NCBI GenBank assembly: GCA_020249265.1
Contig: JADCGA010000009.1
Span: 1-64,000 of the forward strand
Source: Roseomonas sp.
GTDB taxonomy: Bacteria > Pseudomonadota > Alphaproteobacteria > Acetobacterales > Acetobacteraceae
Direction of reading: 5' to 3'
Length of the DNA: 64,000 nucleotides
Shown here piece after piece: positions 5,636 through 11,572 of this stretch (position 1 is the first letter of the stretch; each line of letters starts with the position of its first letter). The notes under the pieces are model-generated. The model was not told the DNA's origin. It did not search any database and saw nothing but the letters and a program-made list of their open reading frames with translations. Position numbers and translations under genes: made by a program.

Positions 5636-6153
5636 TTTCGGTGGATTGGTGCCGCATGATGGCGGCCTATAACAGCGAAATGAACCGCCGGCTTTACGCC
5701 GCTGCCGATGGGCTGGATGCAAGCGCGCGGCAAGCAGATGGCGGCGCCTTTTGGGGCAGCATCCAAGGCACGCTTAGCCATTTGCTGTGGGGCGATACCA
5801 CCTGGATGAGCCGCTTTGACGCTTGGGAAAAACCGAGCGTTGGCATGAAGCAAAGCCCTGTCATGATCACGGATTGGCTTGAGTTGAAATCCCGCCGCGC
5901 GGCCGCGGATGCGAAGATTGAAGCCTGGGCGGCGCGTTTGACGCCCGAAGCCCTGGCGGCGCCGCTGAGTTGGTATTCCGGCATTGCGGAGCGTGAGGTC
6001 AGCATGCCGCTTTGGATCACGGTCGGGCATTTTTTCAATCATCAGACGCATCATCGCGGCCAGGCGCATGCGCTGCTGACGCGCGCCGGGGCGGCCACGG
6101 GTGATACGGATTTGCCTTGGGTGCTGGATTTGCCGGCGCTTGGGCTCAACTGA
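5632..6153 (+). CDS. DinB/YfiT-like putative metalloenzyme
   Basis: A 173-residue four-helix-bundle protein of the DinB superfamily. Family members bind a divalent metal with three His residues; here candidates are His in GTLSHLLWGD (about residue 46) and the pair in HFFNHQTHHRGQAHALL near the C-terminus. Relatives include thiol-dependent transferases and enzymes of unknown substrate, so only the fold is asserted. It begins in a four-base overlap with the GNAT gene and ends a few bases into the convergent transporter gene. Confidence 0.85.
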   Translation: MISVDWCRMMAAYNSEMNRRLYAAADGLDASARQADGGAFWGSIQGTLSHLLWGDTTWMSRFDAWEKPSVGMKQSPVMITDWLELKSRRAAADAKIEAWAARLTPEALAAPLSWYSGIAEREVSMPLWITVGHFFNHQTHHRGQAHALLTRAGAATGDTDLPWVLDLPALGLN

Positions 6154-7099
6154 GTTTTGCGGTGGATTTTGCCGTCTGTGCCGATAGTGCCGCAAGAAAA
6201 GCCCCCAGGCTGATCGCGACAGCCCCCAGGATTTCAAACACACTCGGCACTTCACCCAGGATGAAAAAGGCCAGCAGGAAGCTTGCAACCGGCAGCAAGG
6301 CAAGGCTCATCGCCGCCGCCGGCGCGCCAAGCAGCATGGTCGAACGCCCAAGCGAGAAAATGGTCAAGGCACCCATCAGCACACCCTGATAGAAGCCCTG
6401 GAACAGCAGGTCGGAGACTGGGATTTGCGTGAGCTTGGATGCATCCCAAAAGAACCAGACGAAAACCGGCAAATAGATCAGCATGGAATAGACGCTGAGC
6501 AAGGCAGCACCTTGCAGCGCGGAAAGGCCGGAACGGCGCATGCGCAGCAGATAGACCGAGCCCAACATGCCCGCGCCAACAAACAGGATATCGCCCTTCC
6601 AGTAATCAAGATGGATGCTGGCCGCGCTGACACCACCAATGGAGAGCGCACCCAGCGTGATCAGTGCGAGGCCATATTTGCGCAGGCGAGAAATCGCTTC
6701 ACCCAGGAAATAAAAGCAGAGCAGGCTGGTGAATAGCGGCATGAGGCCAGTGGAAAGCGTGAGATGTCCCGCCGGTGCGAGGGCGAGCCCCTGCGCTGTC
6801 AACATGGCCAAGGGCGCACCTTGCAGCAGTGCGAACCAAAGCCCCTCAAGCCATGCATGGCGCGGCATGGAACCCGCAAGCCGGAGCAGCACCGGCAGCA
6901 GGATCAAGCCCCCGATGCCATAGCGCAGTAGGACAACATCCGCAGGTGTCACGGATTCAGTGACCGCCAGCCGCGTAAAGGCCGGCCAGGCTGACCAGAC
7001 AATGACCGTGAGCGCGGCCCATAAGGCGCCATGTAGCTTGGTGTTTGTCGTAACCTCGGCAACGGGGCCTTGGGCATGGGCCGACATGTGAGGCTTCAA
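6146..7099 (-). CDS. EamA/DMT-superfamily transporter
   Basis: This inner-membrane protein of 317 residues has about ten hydrophobic segments in two homologous EamA repeats, the usual build of drug/metabolite exporters (RhaT, YdcZ and others). The N-terminal 20 residues are hydrophilic, then WAALTVIVWSAWPAFTRLAV starts the first segment. The gene is convergent with the DinB-like gene and overlaps its 3' end by eight bases. Substrate unknown; many family members export amino acids or metabolites, which would fit the neighbouring aminotransferases but is not shown. Confidence 0.88.
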   Translation of the reverse strand: MKPHMSAHAQGPVAEVTTNTKLHGALWAALTVIVWSAWPAFTRLAVTESVTPADVVLLRYGIGGLILLPVLLRLAGSMPRHAWLEGLWFALLQGAPLAMLTAQGLALAPAGHLTLSTGLMPLFTSLLCFYFLGEAISRLRKYGLALITLGALSIGGVSAASIHLDYWKGDILFVGAGMLGSVYLLRMRRSGLSALQGAALLSVYSMLIYLPVFVWFFWDASKLTQIPVSDLLFQGFYQGVLMGALTIFSLGRSTMLLGAPAAAMSLALLPVASFLLAFFILGEVPSVFEILGAVAISLGAFLAALSAQTAKSTAKLS

Positions 7100-7129: not shown

Positions 7130-9190
7130 TCAGCCCTTCGGCACGCCGGCCAATTCCAGACCGCGTGCATAACTATCGCGATCTTCCTGCCGGGCGAGGG
7201 GGTAGCTCGCGATGAAGCGTGCAATTGTGAAATGCGGTTCCAGTTGCAGGAGTTTTTGCACATAGGCAGCCGCTTCCTCACGCCGACCAAGATGGCCGAG
7301 TGCTGCGATGAGATGTTTGTAGCTATTCGAGAAATCCGGACAGGCACGCACAGCGCGCTTTCCAAAGCGATAAGCCGCTGCGTAATCACCCTTGAGAACA
7401 TAAGTTGTTGTGTAAATCGTATCACCGAAATACGCATTGGGATCAAAGCTGGAAAGCGCTGTATAGCGCTGAAGATGTTGAAGCGCAGCATCAGGATCGC
7501 CCGCATAATTATGGGTGGCCGCACTCATGGCCCACGTGAAGGTGATATTTGGGTTTAATCGAAGTGAGATGTTAAAGTAATACTGGGCTAGTTCGTAATC
7601 TTTCTCAAAGAAAGCACACATGTGTCCGCAAATAGCGAAAGCTTCGGCATTTTCAGGATCCGTTCGGATCGCCTGAGTCGCTAGCTCACGAGCTTTTTCG
7701 AGACTCTCGCAGGGATCGGTGGCCCATCCTTGGCCCGTGTGAAATCCATACCAGAACGCCTTCCAGGCTGCTGCCTTGGCATTTTGCGGATCAAGGCGTA
7801 GAGCTTGGTCGAGCAACTCGCCAGCCTTCTCGAAAGGCGCCCGCTGCATTGCAAAAAACATAGGCAAAGCCTGCACTACAAGTCTAGTAGCACTCGACCA
7901 GCGTGAGGTACTTTGCTGTCCTTCAATGAACAGGATCGCCGGATCAATACGTGCTACCACCGGCGCTACAACCCGGTCATGAAGCTGATCCATCATCGAA
8001 GTCGCAAGTTCAAACCGATCACTCCACACCGGCCGAATATCCTGGCCGATATCCAAAAGCCGGATGCTGATGCTGATCTTCTCCGCCCCGCTGATCAGAT
8101 TGCCTTCCACCGCGTAGTGCCAGCCCTTTGACCGAAGCATGGCTTCATCCCATTGCGCCGTCTGCGGCTGCGGCGTCAGTGCGGCGACCACATCAAACCA
8201 ACGGAACCTTGCGAGGGCTGAGGCGATTTCCTGGCTGAGCGAAAAGGCCAGTTGCGCATTATCCTCAGTGGTTGATTGGAAGGGAATGACCCCAATGCGC
8301 AGCCGCGACGCCGTTGGCGCCGAAACGGCAATGCTTGCGCGCGATTCATGATGCGCCGGGGGGCCAAGCCCAGTCTCAATCTTCGGGCGCGTCGGCGCGG
8401 AACGCAGCTTTTCGTAAAGCGCCCTGGTTTCGGCCGCGGGTTCAACCTCCAAGCGGCTCCGCATCGCCATGCGGCAGCGTTCAAACTCACGAAGCGCCTG
8501 CGCCTTTTCACCCAGTTCGGCCAGGGCGGCCATCAGAATACGGCTGGCGCCTTCATGGGTCGGCTCACAGGCAATGATGCGGCGCGCGAGGCCCGCGCGC
8601 CTTTCGGCTGGAACATCGGCCCGCGCGATCTGGTGCAATTCCTCATCAAAAACTGCGGTGATTTCGGTCGCGAAGCGGGCGCGTTCCAACAGAAGCCATT
8701 CGTCAAAGGCTTCCGAAATACCGTTCAAATCTTCCAGCAATTCACCTTCACAGAGCGCCGCGAGATCGGTCCTGAGCAGATTGGCGGGGTGCGGGCCGGC
8801 CAGGATGGCCGCACTATCCACCCAGCAGGCCCGCTGGTTCAGGCGGACCATTTCGGCATCGGTTTCAAGCACCTCATCCGCCAAGGGGCCGAAGGCCAAC
8901 AGCAATTCCCGCAGGGATTGCCGCAGGCTGGCGCGGGCCTGCTGGTCCGGCACACGATCCCAGAGCAGTGCGGCTATCTTGGCCCTGGGCACCCGCTGGC
9001 CGGCATGCAGACAAAGATAACCCAAAATGGCGCGGGCCTTGCGGCCGCGGGGCACCAGATCCTCACCCAGATAGCTGATGGCCCGAAGCGCACCGAGGAG
9101 GTGGATGCGAACAACCGCCTGCCGGGCGCCGACATCCAGCGCCACAAGGTTGTTCTGATTGGCATTTTGTTGCGCCAATGCCACCCCCAA
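7130..9190 (-). CDS. SARP/BTAD-type regulator with TPR C-terminus
   Basis: A 686-residue transcription factor-like protein. Residues about 25-105 form an OmpR/SARP-type winged helix (VRIHLLGALRAISYLG, GRKARAILGYLCLH, RLNQRACWVDSAAILAG). Residues about 115-260 are the helical bacterial transcriptional activator domain (ARRIIACEPTHEGASRILMA). Next comes a TolB/FlgO-like region (RIGVIPFQSTTEDNAQLAFS), and the last 250 residues are TPR-like helices. There is no transmembrane segment. The frame opens at a TTG (9190) and no ATG near the N-terminus fits; an in-frame GTG at 9184 is an alternative. It is divergent from the repeat-peptide gene, so that gene is its most obvious target. The signal sensed is unknown. 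Confidence 0.85.
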   Translation of the reverse strand: MGVALAQQNANQNNLVALDVGARQAVVRIHLLGALRAISYLGEDLVPRGRKARAILGYLCLHAGQRVPRAKIAALLWDRVPDQQARASLRQSLRELLLAFGPLADEVLETDAEMVRLNQRACWVDSAAILAGPHPANLLRTDLAALCEGELLEDLNGISEAFDEWLLLERARFATEITAVFDEELHQIARADVPAERRAGLARRIIACEPTHEGASRILMAALAELGEKAQALREFERCRMAMRSRLEVEPAAETRALYEKLRSAPTRPKIETGLGPPAHHESRASIAVSAPTASRLRIGVIPFQSTTEDNAQLAFSLSQEIASALARFRWFDVVAALTPQPQTAQWDEAMLRSKGWHYAVEGNLISGAEKISISIRLLDIGQDIRPVWSDRFELATSMMDQLHDRVVAPVVARIDPAILFIEGQQSTSRWSSATRLVVQALPMFFAMQRAPFEKAGELLDQALRLDPQNAKAAAWKAFWYGFHTGQGWATDPCESLEKARELATQAIRTDPENAEAFAICGHMCAFFEKDYELAQYYFNISLRLNPNITFTWAMSAATHNYAGDPDAALQHLQRYTALSSFDPNAYFGDTIYTTTYVLKGDYAAAYRFGKRAVRACPDFSNSYKHLIAALGHLGRREEAAAYVQKLLQLEPHFTIARFIASYPLARQEDRDSYARGLELAGVPKG

Positions 9191-9411
9191 TGATTGTCCT
9201 CAACGGACGCTATACTACCAAGCTATAACCTGCGGTTGTGTCATGCAAGCATTATTTCACGCCAAAATGCGTTTTTTTAACGCTGCCCTTATGCTGGCTT
9301 CACAGCCCTTTCACGCCCGGCCATCAAGCTACACCCTATCAACGCTTCGCAACCGCGCGGTTCAACTTCTGGTAGCATCCAGGTCGAGCCCCAAACACAG
9401 GAGATGGTAAA

Positions 9412-9756
9412 ATGAACGAGATGCACATGCAACAGCTTCCTTCCATGAAGCCGGTTTCCCTTGGTGGGGCCGCGATCGCCGATGCAGGCAAAGTCCGCTT
9501 CGGCGCCCTCGCACCAAGCCTGCCGCTGGTGCGCGCTTCTGCCGAAGCGGTGTCCGATGCAGGCAAGGTTCGCCTGGGCGGCTATGCGCCCAGCCTTCCG
9601 CCGGTGCGCGTTTCCGCCGAAGCCATTGCCGATAGCGACAAGGTTCGCCTGGGCGGCTATGCGCCCAGCCTTCCGCCGGTGCGCGTTTCCGCCGAAGCCA
9701 TTGCCGATGCAGGCAAGGTTCGCCTGGGTGGCTATGCGCCCAGCCTGCCGCGCTGA
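9412..9756 (+). CDS. four-repeat small protein, candidate peptide precursor
   Basis: The product has 114 residues: a short leader (MNEMHMQQLPSMKPVSLGG) followed by four units with consensus DAGKVRLGGYAPSLPPVRVS spaced every 25 residues, the last ending in YAPSLPR. There is no cysteine and no tryptophan, no signal peptide and no membrane segment. A good ribosome-binding site (AGGAG at about 9400) precedes the ATG. The layout of leader plus near-identical repeats is that of a multi-core precursor peptide, or alternatively of a low-complexity structural or binding-repeat protein. It lies between the divergent SARP-type regulator and a DUF6065-like gene. I do not recognise the family; the precursor idea is inference. 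Confidence 0.6.
   Translation: MNEMHMQQLPSMKPVSLGGAAIADAGKVRFGALAPSLPLVRASAEAVSDAGKVRLGGYAPSLPPVRVSAEAIADSDKVRLGGYAPSLPPVRVSAEAIADAGKVRLGGYAPSLPR
9481..9753 (+). repeat. tandem 75-bp coding repeats (3.6 copies)
   Basis: Units begin with GAT at 9481, 9556, 9631 and 9706, exactly 75 bases apart. Units 2 to 4 are almost identical at the base level, including third positions, while unit 1 is more diverged (VRFGALAPSLP against VRLGGYAPSLP). This indicates recent expansion of the 3' units by unequal exchange or slippage while keeping the frame. Confidence 0.9.
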
Positions 9757-9775
9757 AGCTTAGGCCCATGGCGTA

Positions 9776-9792
9776 GGGGGCAAGACGCCCCC
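9776..9792 (+). terminator. GC hairpin after the repeat-peptide gene
   Basis: GGGGGC and GCCCCC form a perfect 6-bp stem with loop AAGAC, 20 bases after the stop of the repeat-peptide gene. No run of T follows, so it may reduce or pause transcription into the next gene and not stop it fully. Confidence 0.45.
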
Positions 9793-9849
9793 GGATGGCA
9801 GTTTGGGGTGATTTGCGGAAGAGTTTCTCCTTCCTCATCCCCCAACAGC

Positions 9850-10647
9850 ATGACAGGGCAGAACTTGACTGAATCCCGCAAGGCGGAAGCGCCGCTTGCC
9901 ACCTTCTATCGCATGATCCCATCGGCGCGCCCGCCCCAGCGCGCCGATCGTGCGGCCGCCGGCACCTTGCCAACACGCGCTTTTCGTTTTTGTGAGGCAA
10001 TGACTACCGCTTCTTCCTTCGGCTGGTATGTTTTTCCACCCATCGGCTTCAAGCTGATGTGGGATGGTTCGGATGTGATCTGGACCTATGATGGTGTGGA
10101 GGATTGGTACCCCCTCACCAGCGCACAATTTCCGAACTTCGCGCCACATTTCGATGATGCGGCACCTGAAGACATCAAGGGCTATTCACCGCCCTTCCTA
10201 AGCAGCTTCATCGAACCTGGCCTGGTGCAGATCTGGAGCGGCCTTGCCATGCGTACTGCGCCAGGCTGGGCGGCACTTGTTCGCGCGCCGGCCAATTTTG
10301 TGCGCAACCGCGGATACGAATGCTATGAAGGCATTGTTGAAACCAGCAACTGGTTCGGCCCGCTTTTCATCAATGTGCGGCTGACACGCACGCATCACCC
10401 GATCGAATTTGATCCGAACTTCCCTTTTCTGCAGGTGCAACCTATCCCGCGGGAGGCCTATGGCGCGGCCGTGGAGAATTTCTCGATCATCGAAAATTTA
10501 TCAGACTTTGGTGAGGCTGAGTGGAATGATTTCCGCCATACCGTGGTACGCCCGAACAAGGACCCGCATCGCAAGCTTGGCGATTACGCGGTAGGCCTCC
10601 GCAAAACCCAGCGCGCCAAGGAACGTGACGATCCCGCGAAGGATTGA
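9850..10647 (+). CDS. DUF6065-like protein
   Basis: The product has 265 residues from the ATG at 9850; a GTG at 9808 would add 14 residues rich in Ser/Pro and seems less likely. Segments such as ASSFGWYVFPPIGFKLMWDG, followed by an aromatic, acidic stretch (WTYDGVEDWYPL) and a middle WFGPLFINVRLTRTH, resemble the DUF6065 family as I remember it. That assignment is tentative and the family has no known reaction. No signal peptide, membrane helix or metal-binding cluster is obvious. It follows the repeat-peptide gene by about 90 bases on the same strand, so it may act on or with that peptide. Confidence 0.5.
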   Translation: MTGQNLTESRKAEAPLATFYRMIPSARPPQRADRAAAGTLPTRAFRFCEAMTTASSFGWYVFPPIGFKLMWDGSDVIWTYDGVEDWYPLTSAQFPNFAPHFDDAAPEDIKGYSPPFLSSFIEPGLVQIWSGLAMRTAPGWAALVRAPANFVRNRGYECYEGIVETSNWFGPLFINVRLTRTHHPIEFDPNFPFLQVQPIPREAYGAAVENFSIIENLSDFGEAEWNDFRHTVVRPNKDPHRKLGDYAVGLRKTQRAKERDDPAKD

Positions 10648-10738
10648 TGCAAAAATTCCAATCAAGCCTTGATGCGTTTCTCGTGGCGCAAGCCTGTGCT
10701 GTCTTGTGGAAATCTGTCGGCCTTAATCAGAAAAAACC

Positions 10739-10785
10739 CTTGTGCCAACTGCGGAAACTTGTAAAAAAATGTTGTCTTGCACAAG
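10739..10785. promoter_or_regulatory. spaced inverted repeat before the 74-residue orphan
   Basis: CTTGTGC (10739-10745) and GCACAAG (10779-10785) are exact inverted copies 33 bases apart in an AT-richer stretch ahead of the gene at 10830. They could be an operator, for example for the XRE regulator encoded nearby. Short arms with long spacing can arise by chance, so this is weak. Confidence 0.25.
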
Positions 10786-10829
10786 ATTTCACCTAAAGTG
10801 ATCTTATTCCATGCAGAGGAAACAACGCC

Positions 10830-11054
10830 ATGCCACGTGACGGTGAAGACATCCTGGATGAAAAACTCGTTACGCCTGAGCTTGAATTGGCGATACTCCG
10901 GCTTTGGGCGGCGGCGATGCATATGGAACGCAGTTTCAGTCGCCAGGAAATTGAAGCCATTCCGGCCTTGTCGCGCACTATTGCGGAAGCCCAATTGTTA
11001 CCTGCAGCAATCGGTTGGGATGATGTCTTGCCGGAACACGTTGTCAGCATATAG
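10830..11054 (+). CDS. hypothetical 74-residue protein
   Basis: A small acidic helical protein that begins MPRDGEDILDEKLVTPELEL. It has a likely helix through ELAILRLWAAAMHMERSFS and ends QLLPAAIGWDDVLPEHVVSI. The ribosome-binding site AGAGGAAAC lies just upstream. I do not recognise it. It sits between the DUF6065-like gene and the convergent XRE regulator, with AT-rich sequence on both sides, and may belong to the same accessory block. Confidence 0.6.
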   Translation: MPRDGEDILDEKLVTPELELAILRLWAAAMHMERSFSRQEIEAIPALSRTIAEAQLLPAAIGWDDVLPEHVVSI

Positions 11055-11119: not shown

Positions 11120-11572
11120 TCAATCGCTTGCACCTTCCGCCTGACGCGCAAGACTCTGCACCAGGGTCGTTATGGAACGCCTGATCTCAGGGTCCGAGAT
11201 CTGGGAAAAAGCCCGTCCGATACTATAGGCATCACGAGCAGTCTCCCGCAGTGCCAACTCATCCAAGGCCGCGTTCCCCTGGCTTTGGGAAAAGCCTTCC
11301 TCATCCAACAGGAAGGTGATTGGAACGCCAAGCGCGGTCGCCACCATCAATAATCTTCCGGCACCGATACGATTCTCGCCCCGCTCATATTTCTGCAGTT
11401 GCTGGAAGGTAACGCCAAGACTTCCCGCAAGCTTCTGCTGGCTCATGCCGATCATGGAACGGTACAGCCGAATGCGGTCCCCAACGAAACGGTCAACATC
11501 AGTGGTTTCCCGGCGCGCTGGTTTTCTCAAGGAGCAGAGAAGGTCCTGCTCGGTCCGCGTGACATCCGACAT
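11120..11572 (-). CDS. XRE-family helix-turn-helix regulator
   Basis: A 150-residue DNA-binding protein. Residues about 27-85 form the HTH_3 domain (VGDRIRLYRSMIGMSQQKLA, then GVTFQQLQKYERGENRI). The C-terminal half is a short helical extension. It resembles the single-domain alphaproteobacterial XRE regulators of about 140 residues. Its targets are unknown; the AT-rich spacer to the 10830 gene is a candidate. Confidence 0.85.
   Translation of the reverse strand: MSDVTRTEQDLLCSLRKPARRETTDVDRFVGDRIRLYRSMIGMSQQKLAGSLGVTFQQLQKYERGENRIGAGRLLMVATALGVPITFLLDEEGFSQSQGNAALDELALRETARDAYSIGRAFSQISDPEIRRSITTLVQSLARQAEGASD

Follow-up and report, generated by a model that had tools for sequence, protein, structure and literature searches.

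The first 64,000 nucleotides of contig JADCGA010000009.1 of Roseomonas sp. (assembly GCA_020249265.1; the whole stretch is hereafter called the window) contain a real gene cassette, in which a gene encoding a 114-residue peptide with four tandem units (9412..9756, + strand) precedes a gene encoding a DUF6065-like protein (9850..10647, + strand, start codon ATG chosen by eye). A first-pass annotation had proposed the repeat peptide as a multi-core precursor; the candidate precursor is one part of the cassette, whose DUF6065 gene 93 nt downstream, regulator, and exporter that annotation had missed. Comparison between genomes shows the pairing of the repeat gene with DUF6065 across Acetobacteraceae and scattered other lineages, and the gene module as a whole is well supported. 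The uncharacterised Pfam family DUF6065 (PF19541) thus gains a partner, and hence a testable substrate or ligand. Many Acetobacteraceae carry the cassette, as do a small number of other Proteobacteria, and ordinary annotation can miss its short, assembly-breaking repeat open reading frame (ORF).

The repeat gene and its pairing with DUF6065

The repeat ORF begins with ATG, 8 nt downstream of AGGAG (9399..9403, + strand), its likely ribosome-binding site. In the translation, the 12-residue cores start at residues 27, 52, 77, and 102, and this strict 75-nt (25-residue) period was recovered by Tandem Repeats Finder as the strongest array of the window (9478-9751, period 75, 3.7 copies, 86% matches, score 385; second-best array, score 54) and by a second repeat search of the window sequence (spacings of 75 and 75), confirming the ORF with its four-unit array as first described. 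The cores of units 2, 3, and 4 (9565..9600, 9640..9675, and 9715..9750, the last C-terminal; all + strand) are identical at all 12 residues (KVRLGGYAPSLP), whereas the core of unit 1 (KVRFGALAPSLP; 9490..9525, + strand) is divergent; a single unit can be written as DAGKVRLGGYAPSLPPV. The layout of a leader followed by identical repeats stands only in part: the N-terminal part is short and the units are homogenised, but unit 1 diverges and the leader holds a degenerate half-unit (VSLGGAAIADAG), which leaves only about 12 residues clearly outside the repeat. This QQLPSM-like leader is kept within the clade of the window, and the N-termini of other lineages differ by eye. Neither a signal peptide nor a membrane helix was recognised by eye in the window protein; a Pfam scan of it returned nothing at E ≤ 0.01, and its single NCBIfam match (E 0.65, 9 bits) is taken as chance. 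Because such arrays break draft assemblies, the count of four could reflect collapse of a longer array.

Codon comparison supports translation of the repeat ORF. Among 59 units from 14 loci of the clade, window included, 10 of the 12 core amino acids (the nearly invariant K, V, R, G, G, A, P, S, L, and P) are kept while their synonymous codons vary. Between loci, the encoded amino acid differs in 0.87 of pairs at the codon after GG and in 0.81 at the codon after R, compared with 0 to 0.16 at the other ten core codons, where synonymous differences reach 0.59; the DUF6065 proteins of six loci differ from that of the window by 0.08-0.16 at the amino acid level. This pattern is a description and not a selection test, since the units of an array cannot be counted as independent and only a limited set of residues occurs at the variable position. 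The residue after R is F, I, L, V, or M, and that after GG, Tyr in the window, is N, Y, C, L, H, F, or M, making it the most variable core position. The Tyr that had been listed among conserved modification sites is thus replaced by Cys, His, Asn, Leu, Met, or Phe in orthologues, and the absence of Cys, which together with that of Trp is true of the window protein, is not a family trait.

In a search of 99 genomes, that of the window among them, the repeat protein matched 61 at E ≤ 1 and 22 at E ≤ 1e-3; all matches below E 1e-20 belong to the same genus, and those from E 4e-17 to 7e-4 mostly to other genera. When twelve window proteins were compared with 32 fetched loci by tblastn, 23 loci contained a DUF6065 relative, which in several cases (e.g., L049, L050, L053, and L056) was the sole shared neighbour; some repeat matches as weak as E 0.004-0.02 were borne out by it. 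Among the nine remaining loci, the contig stops in or beside the repeat in eight, and the ninth (L064) has neither gene.

A larger comparison used 146 loci of the DUF6065 subfamily to which the window protein belongs, 66 from fetched genomes and 80 from GTDB contigs, the latter being the best 80 of 309 relatives. Some contigs occur under two identifiers, and groups formed at 80% identity absorb these duplicates; the resulting 60 groups include groups 35-37, which are parts of the clade of the window split off because the analysis cut their DUF6065 frames short. The strict motif D-x-[GSAR]-x-[VIL]-[RSH]-x-[GA]-[AGNS], a regular expression composed after the repeats had been seen, was found no more than 1300 nt 5' of DUF6065 in 111 of the 128 loci with at least 400 nt of upstream sequence (46 of 58 such groups, or 43 of 55 after correction of the split clade to 57 groups in all), compared with 25 of 429 control ORFs from the same loci. 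Two or more motifs occurred at 83 of 128 DUF6065 loci and upstream of 1 of 429 controls. Some matches to the expression used for collecting units are false (L060, L215, L163, L165, L209, L228, L210, L133, and L099), any true unit lying elsewhere; these loci and L202 are excluded from the unit tables. L224 is motif-positive, yet a clear unit is absent by eye.

In eight of the 12 motif-negative groups, a variant of the repeat or unit is recognisable by eye, such as GTMSPAF and GDMSPAF (L163 and L167), VEVGNGAIAPK (L187/L199), and KQTRQFGDGG (L137), with others in L210, L217, and L208, and a single unit in L095. No repeat was recognised by eye in L164, whose group-mate L163 has one. The arrangement extends to plasmids of Rhizobium sp. 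WSM4643 and SRDI969, where a hypothetical protein with three DDGKVHIANKSPAFDIADFV-type units, keeping only the skeleton D-x-G-K-V-...-S-P-A-F, is followed by DUF6065 and then by an MFS gene overlapping the end of DUF6065, intact in SRDI969 and broken in WSM4643 (L253:6717-7858).

Unit types, subfamilies, and distribution of the cassette

The DUF6065 protein of the window passes the PF19541 gathering cut-off (57.2 vs. 26.6 bits) over profile positions 79-191 of 236, that is, with partial coverage. The family was detected in 57 of the 146 relatives scanned and, among 289 genomes of the class, in 35 (E ≤ 1e-4). Its members are of two kinds: classic proteins, which mostly exceed 290 bits (135 and 195 bits in two partial or odd members), and a subfamily scoring about 24-65 bits, which includes the window protein. 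Classic genes are essentially without an upstream repeat gene (one motif in 1 of 34, two motifs in 0 of 34), and no neighbour family recurs in more than 2 of 11 classic loci.

Profile A1 retrieved the 309 subfamily relatives from GTDB contigs. By record titles, the best 80 of them come mainly from Acetobacteraceae-type genera (Roseomonas, Rhodopila, Elioraea, Siccirubricoccus, and others), and also include Reyranella and records labelled Betaproteobacteria, where labels of metagenome bins may be wrong. Profile A2 matched 68 of 299 genomes of the order at E ≤ 1e-8 (G105 partially), and in the phylum sample 3 of 398, namely the genome of the window and two weak matches, of which G157 is classic. 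As far as these profile searches reach, the system is largely confined to this order, with scattered outliers. Plasmid records gave three matches to the DUF6065 protein and none to the DNA; phage records searched with the protein gave no match. Three subfamily matches with one internal stop (G012:C32, G912:C404, and G938:C96) are possibly decaying copies.

Over 44 group consensus units, the repeat has the skeleton D-A-G-[KR]-[VI]-R-L-G-[GA]-x-[AS]-[PR]-x-L, in which R and G are fixed by the search expression and D partly by a filter, so that these do not count as independent conservation. The unit period spans roughly 13-26 residues. Strict motifs are most often spaced by 25 residues (also 22) in the clade of the window and by 17, 18, 19, 20, 23, 24, or 26 elsewhere; three two-unit groups show looser spacings of 44-50, and the variant unit KVKLGMMSPAFGKA of L217 recurs about every 13. 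Variation in repeat number, named as a check in the first pass, was borne out: across 86 uncut loci, strict-motif copies range from 0 (one locus, L208, with a variant unit) and 1 (20 loci, several holding further variant units by eye) up to 18. Nine groups have a true single unit by eye (L095, L102, L107, L110, L114, L119, L130, L133, and L218 with its group). Copy numbers from draft assemblies are unsafe, as 28 of 80 loci have a contig end no farther than 1200 nt upstream (5 have one downstream), and 21 of the 28 upstream ends fall inside an open repeat ORF. The second copy in G007 (L137) is peculiar in that its DUF6065 is divergent (38% identity) and its upstream repeat ORF is of another kind (KQTRQFGDGG), itself preceded by a second array of this type.

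Unit type matches DUF6065 type, as shown by comparison of the two along a tree. A maximum-likelihood tree built quickly from 77 DUF6065 proteins, whose near-copies inflate the clustering, requires 20 changes of unit type, compared with 43.5 on average after shuffling (0 of 200 shuffles as low), and the two large types, GGxAP and GAG, are separated by one change. Stronger evidence comes from the 11 same-genus genomes that hold two subfamily copies, 10 of which have one copy of each type (exception G007); type therefore follows the DUF6065 copy and not the host.

The other recurrent element is a BTAD/TolB_N/TPR transcriptional regulator, in the window divergent from the pair (7130..9190, - strand; BTAD domain 49.7 bits; the only copy in the genome at E ≤ 1e-10). 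It occurs at most about 6 kb away in 42 of 60 groups (40 of 57 after correction), divergent upstream in 26, downstream in 15, and upstream on the same strand in 1. Conserved neighbours, which the first pass had named as a check, thus do exist. An EamA-family exporter gene (6146..7099, - strand) directly follows the regulator on its strand and thus lies beyond it, not beside the repeat-DUF6065 pair. In groups 4, 45, and 52, an EamA gene is directly 3' of DUF6065, and the best match of the group 4 protein in the genome of the window is the window EamA (E 4.6e-44; sole other match 5.4e-9). An exporter adjoins the pair in four lineages other than that of the window, which makes five with the latter.

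Comparison of gene content likewise shows that the cassette genes are absent together from some genomes. All five same-genus genomes that have no DUF6065 lack the regulator and an intact EamA orthologue; four are without an EamA orthologue, and G025 retains a frame-broken remnant (about 110 residues, spread over two frames, close to the start of a contig; L287:320-651, G025:C12), within 6 kb of which none of the other eleven window proteins was found. As three of these five genomes are less than 92% complete, the absence can be relied on mainly in G025 and G029. In three genomes with DUF6065, both regulator and EamA are present.

Possible function of the repeat units

DUF6065 is predicted to adopt the trimeric dUTPase / beta-clip fold, that of the dUTPase / dCTP deaminase superfamily. 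Its EGIVETD-WFG segment, by eye, loosely resembles dUTPase motif III. The protein differs in being about 100 residues longer than most matches and in possessing a conserved Trp/Arg/Gln set and a repeat-peptide partner. Profile A2 found no dUTPase among PDB sequences (single match, E 0.75, chance level), and a viral fold library returned uncharacterised phage proteins and dUTPases, giving no lead. Literature searches found no paper on DUF6065 or PF19541, nothing on the dUTPase fold with a domain of unknown function and a peptide, nothing on Roseomonas with a precursor peptide, and, judged by titles and the beginnings of abstracts, nothing relevant on dUTPase with ribosomally synthesised and post-translationally modified peptides (RiPPs). 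No description of the cassette emerged from the family scans and these searches.

The logic of a repeat precursor beside an enzyme resembles that of RiPPs, but we could place none of the parts in a known RiPP class. Multi-core precursors, such as the multi-core microviridins (PMC5934393), likewise combine a short gene beside a partner with near-identical tandem units in variable number, and a small encoded precursor beside a conserved partner is present here. The cassette differs in that it is without a recognised maturase, leader, or cognate protease, its units can be single, its partner has a predicted dUTPase fold, and modification of its units is hypothetical. The precursor proposal therefore keeps its support from layout, copy variation, and neighbours, and loses that from a conserved Tyr and from the weight placed on the absence of Cys.

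The organisation best fits a chain presenting copies of a short core to its cognate DUF6065. Our preferred but tentative reading is that the repeat gene encodes the multi-copy substrate peptide of the cassette, with the DxGKVRxG core bound and probably modified by DUF6065. In this cassette of BTAD/TPR regulator, repeat peptide, and DUF6065, with an EamA or MFS exporter in some lineages, DUF6065 would bind each DxG(K/R)(V/I)RxG(G/A) core directly and modify or split it, perhaps with a nucleotide as co-substrate given the fold, although this chemistry is inferred. A general protease would then free a piece and EamA or MFS would export the small product. Many units per chain would yield many product copies per translation, and the variable residue that follows GG/GA may determine which product is made. 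We favour the substrate reading because exporters occur in five lineages, the arrays are homogenised like precursor cores, and one residue varies freely; the differing period and the single-unit forms suit a peptide carrier. It is also possible, with considerable reservation, that the cassette represents a new class of peptide system built on a dUTPase-fold protein and tandem DxGKVRxGG cores: the protein would use a nucleotide to modify the cores, leading to a small exported compound, or the cores, like an arm that has been detached and multiplied, would complete its active site in trans. If the units are processed, this would be a class of peptide products with a maturation fold not known for that role; we know of no dUTPase fold in peptide maturation.

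Several observations weigh against the substrate reading. To our knowledge, DUF6065 resembles no known peptide-modifying enzyme; no protease gene recurs independently beside the pair, exporters adjoin it in a minority of lineages only, and no leader is common to different lineages. Only two core positions vary freely, and more would be expected if the units were the product. Moreover, four groups (L109, L165, L197/L204, and L223) have no repeat upstream of DUF6065 even by eye.

The absence of a known modifying or cleaving enzyme, the predicted fold, and the tight pairing would suit the main alternative, which is less likely and in which unprocessed cores act as a polyvalent ligand, docking in trans in the dUTPase-like pocket and gathering or switching on several trimers, much as the C-terminal arm of dUTPase (motif V) closes the site of a neighbouring subunit. 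If so, this would be a novel mode of control over a dUTPase-like protein; however, it leaves the exporters and the very high copy numbers unexplained, and a related idea, that of detached tails, failed its test. Most of the 34 classic DUF6065 proteins (L138-L148 and L230-L252) have a conserved C-terminal tail, W-Q-K-x-Y ... H-x-T-K-L-R-L-K-P-F, and the likeness of HRTKLRLKPF-like tails to KVRLGGF suggested that the units might be such tails in detached form. With a position-specific scoring matrix from 44 group consensus units, the tail was the best window in 5, 3, and 3 of the 34 proteins (18, 12, and 9 positions), and 25, 7, and 0 of 200 shuffles, respectively, reached the observed mean; the 9-position result is weak alone because classic tails are related to each other, and the idea was rejected.

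Freed units could instead serve as pheromones that the regulator senses through its TPR part, with DUF6065 as a maturation protein, which we consider improbable. TPR receptors for peptide signals are known, the regulator accompanies most groups, commonly in the divergent position, and one core residue is highly variable between orthologues; on the other hand, no regulator was found near 18 groups, some on short contigs, and no peptide importer recurred in neighbour clustering. RRNPP-type signalling would require that the TPR regulator beside the peptide gene bind the peptide; the adjacency is present here, and binding is hypothetical. SARP-like (Streptomyces antibiotic regulatory protein) regulators, a family known from Streptomyces, share the BTAD domain and adjacency to genes that they presumably control, whereas the window regulator has a TolB_N and TPR C-terminal part and no known biosynthetic cluster beside it.

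A structural repeat protein, e.g., a solenoid or surface fibre, is more doubtful still. The period is regular in most loci, with up to 18 units, but it varies between loci and even within the group of the window (25 and 22), nine groups are single-unit by eye, and unit type tracks DUF6065. Solenoid proteins have a constant period and a minimal repeat number, and the varying period and the single units make a solenoid unlikely here; single-unit homologues, raised in the first pass as a possible objection if of known structural role, do exist and have no known role of this kind. That the repeat is a neutral satellite or assembly artefact is barely credible: repeats do lie at contig ends in many drafts, but the codon pattern is that of a constrained protein, the same arrangement occurs in complete Rhizobium plasmid records and many long contigs, and the conserved pairing contradicts it.

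Minor features of the locus and its relatives

The gap between the repeat gene and DUF6065 (9757..9849, + strand) holds two candidate hairpins common to most of 13 clade members; changes on both sides affect 3 of 16 consensus pairs, and the covariation term is unfavourable. A promoter scan of 9100-9900 returned one weak minus-strand site and no terminator, and an Rfam scan of 9100-10900 gave no match at the gathering score. NCBIfam scores of seven repeat proteins were low, and one match to a J25-lasso model at its 23-bit cut-off, spanning 9 residues of a repetitive protein, is taken as a compositional artefact. In neighbour clustering over the 146 loci, where family scans covered part of the neighbours, only DUF6065 and the BTAD regulator were widespread, and no recognised maturase or leader peptidase recurred.

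TldD and TldE process some RiPPs. In seven DUF6065 groups (13 loci, e.g., L179:3547-5001), the repeat gene is preceded on its own strand by a gene for a TldD metallopeptidase, which probably reflects ancestral synteny within one clade. In the clade of the window, DUF6065 is followed by a 74-residue ORF without Pfam or NCBIfam match (10830-11054) and an HTH_3 regulator (11120-11572), and in several loci of group 12 (e.g., L166:6806-7594) a gene for a secreted-looking GDSL-like hydrolase lies 3' of DUF6065.
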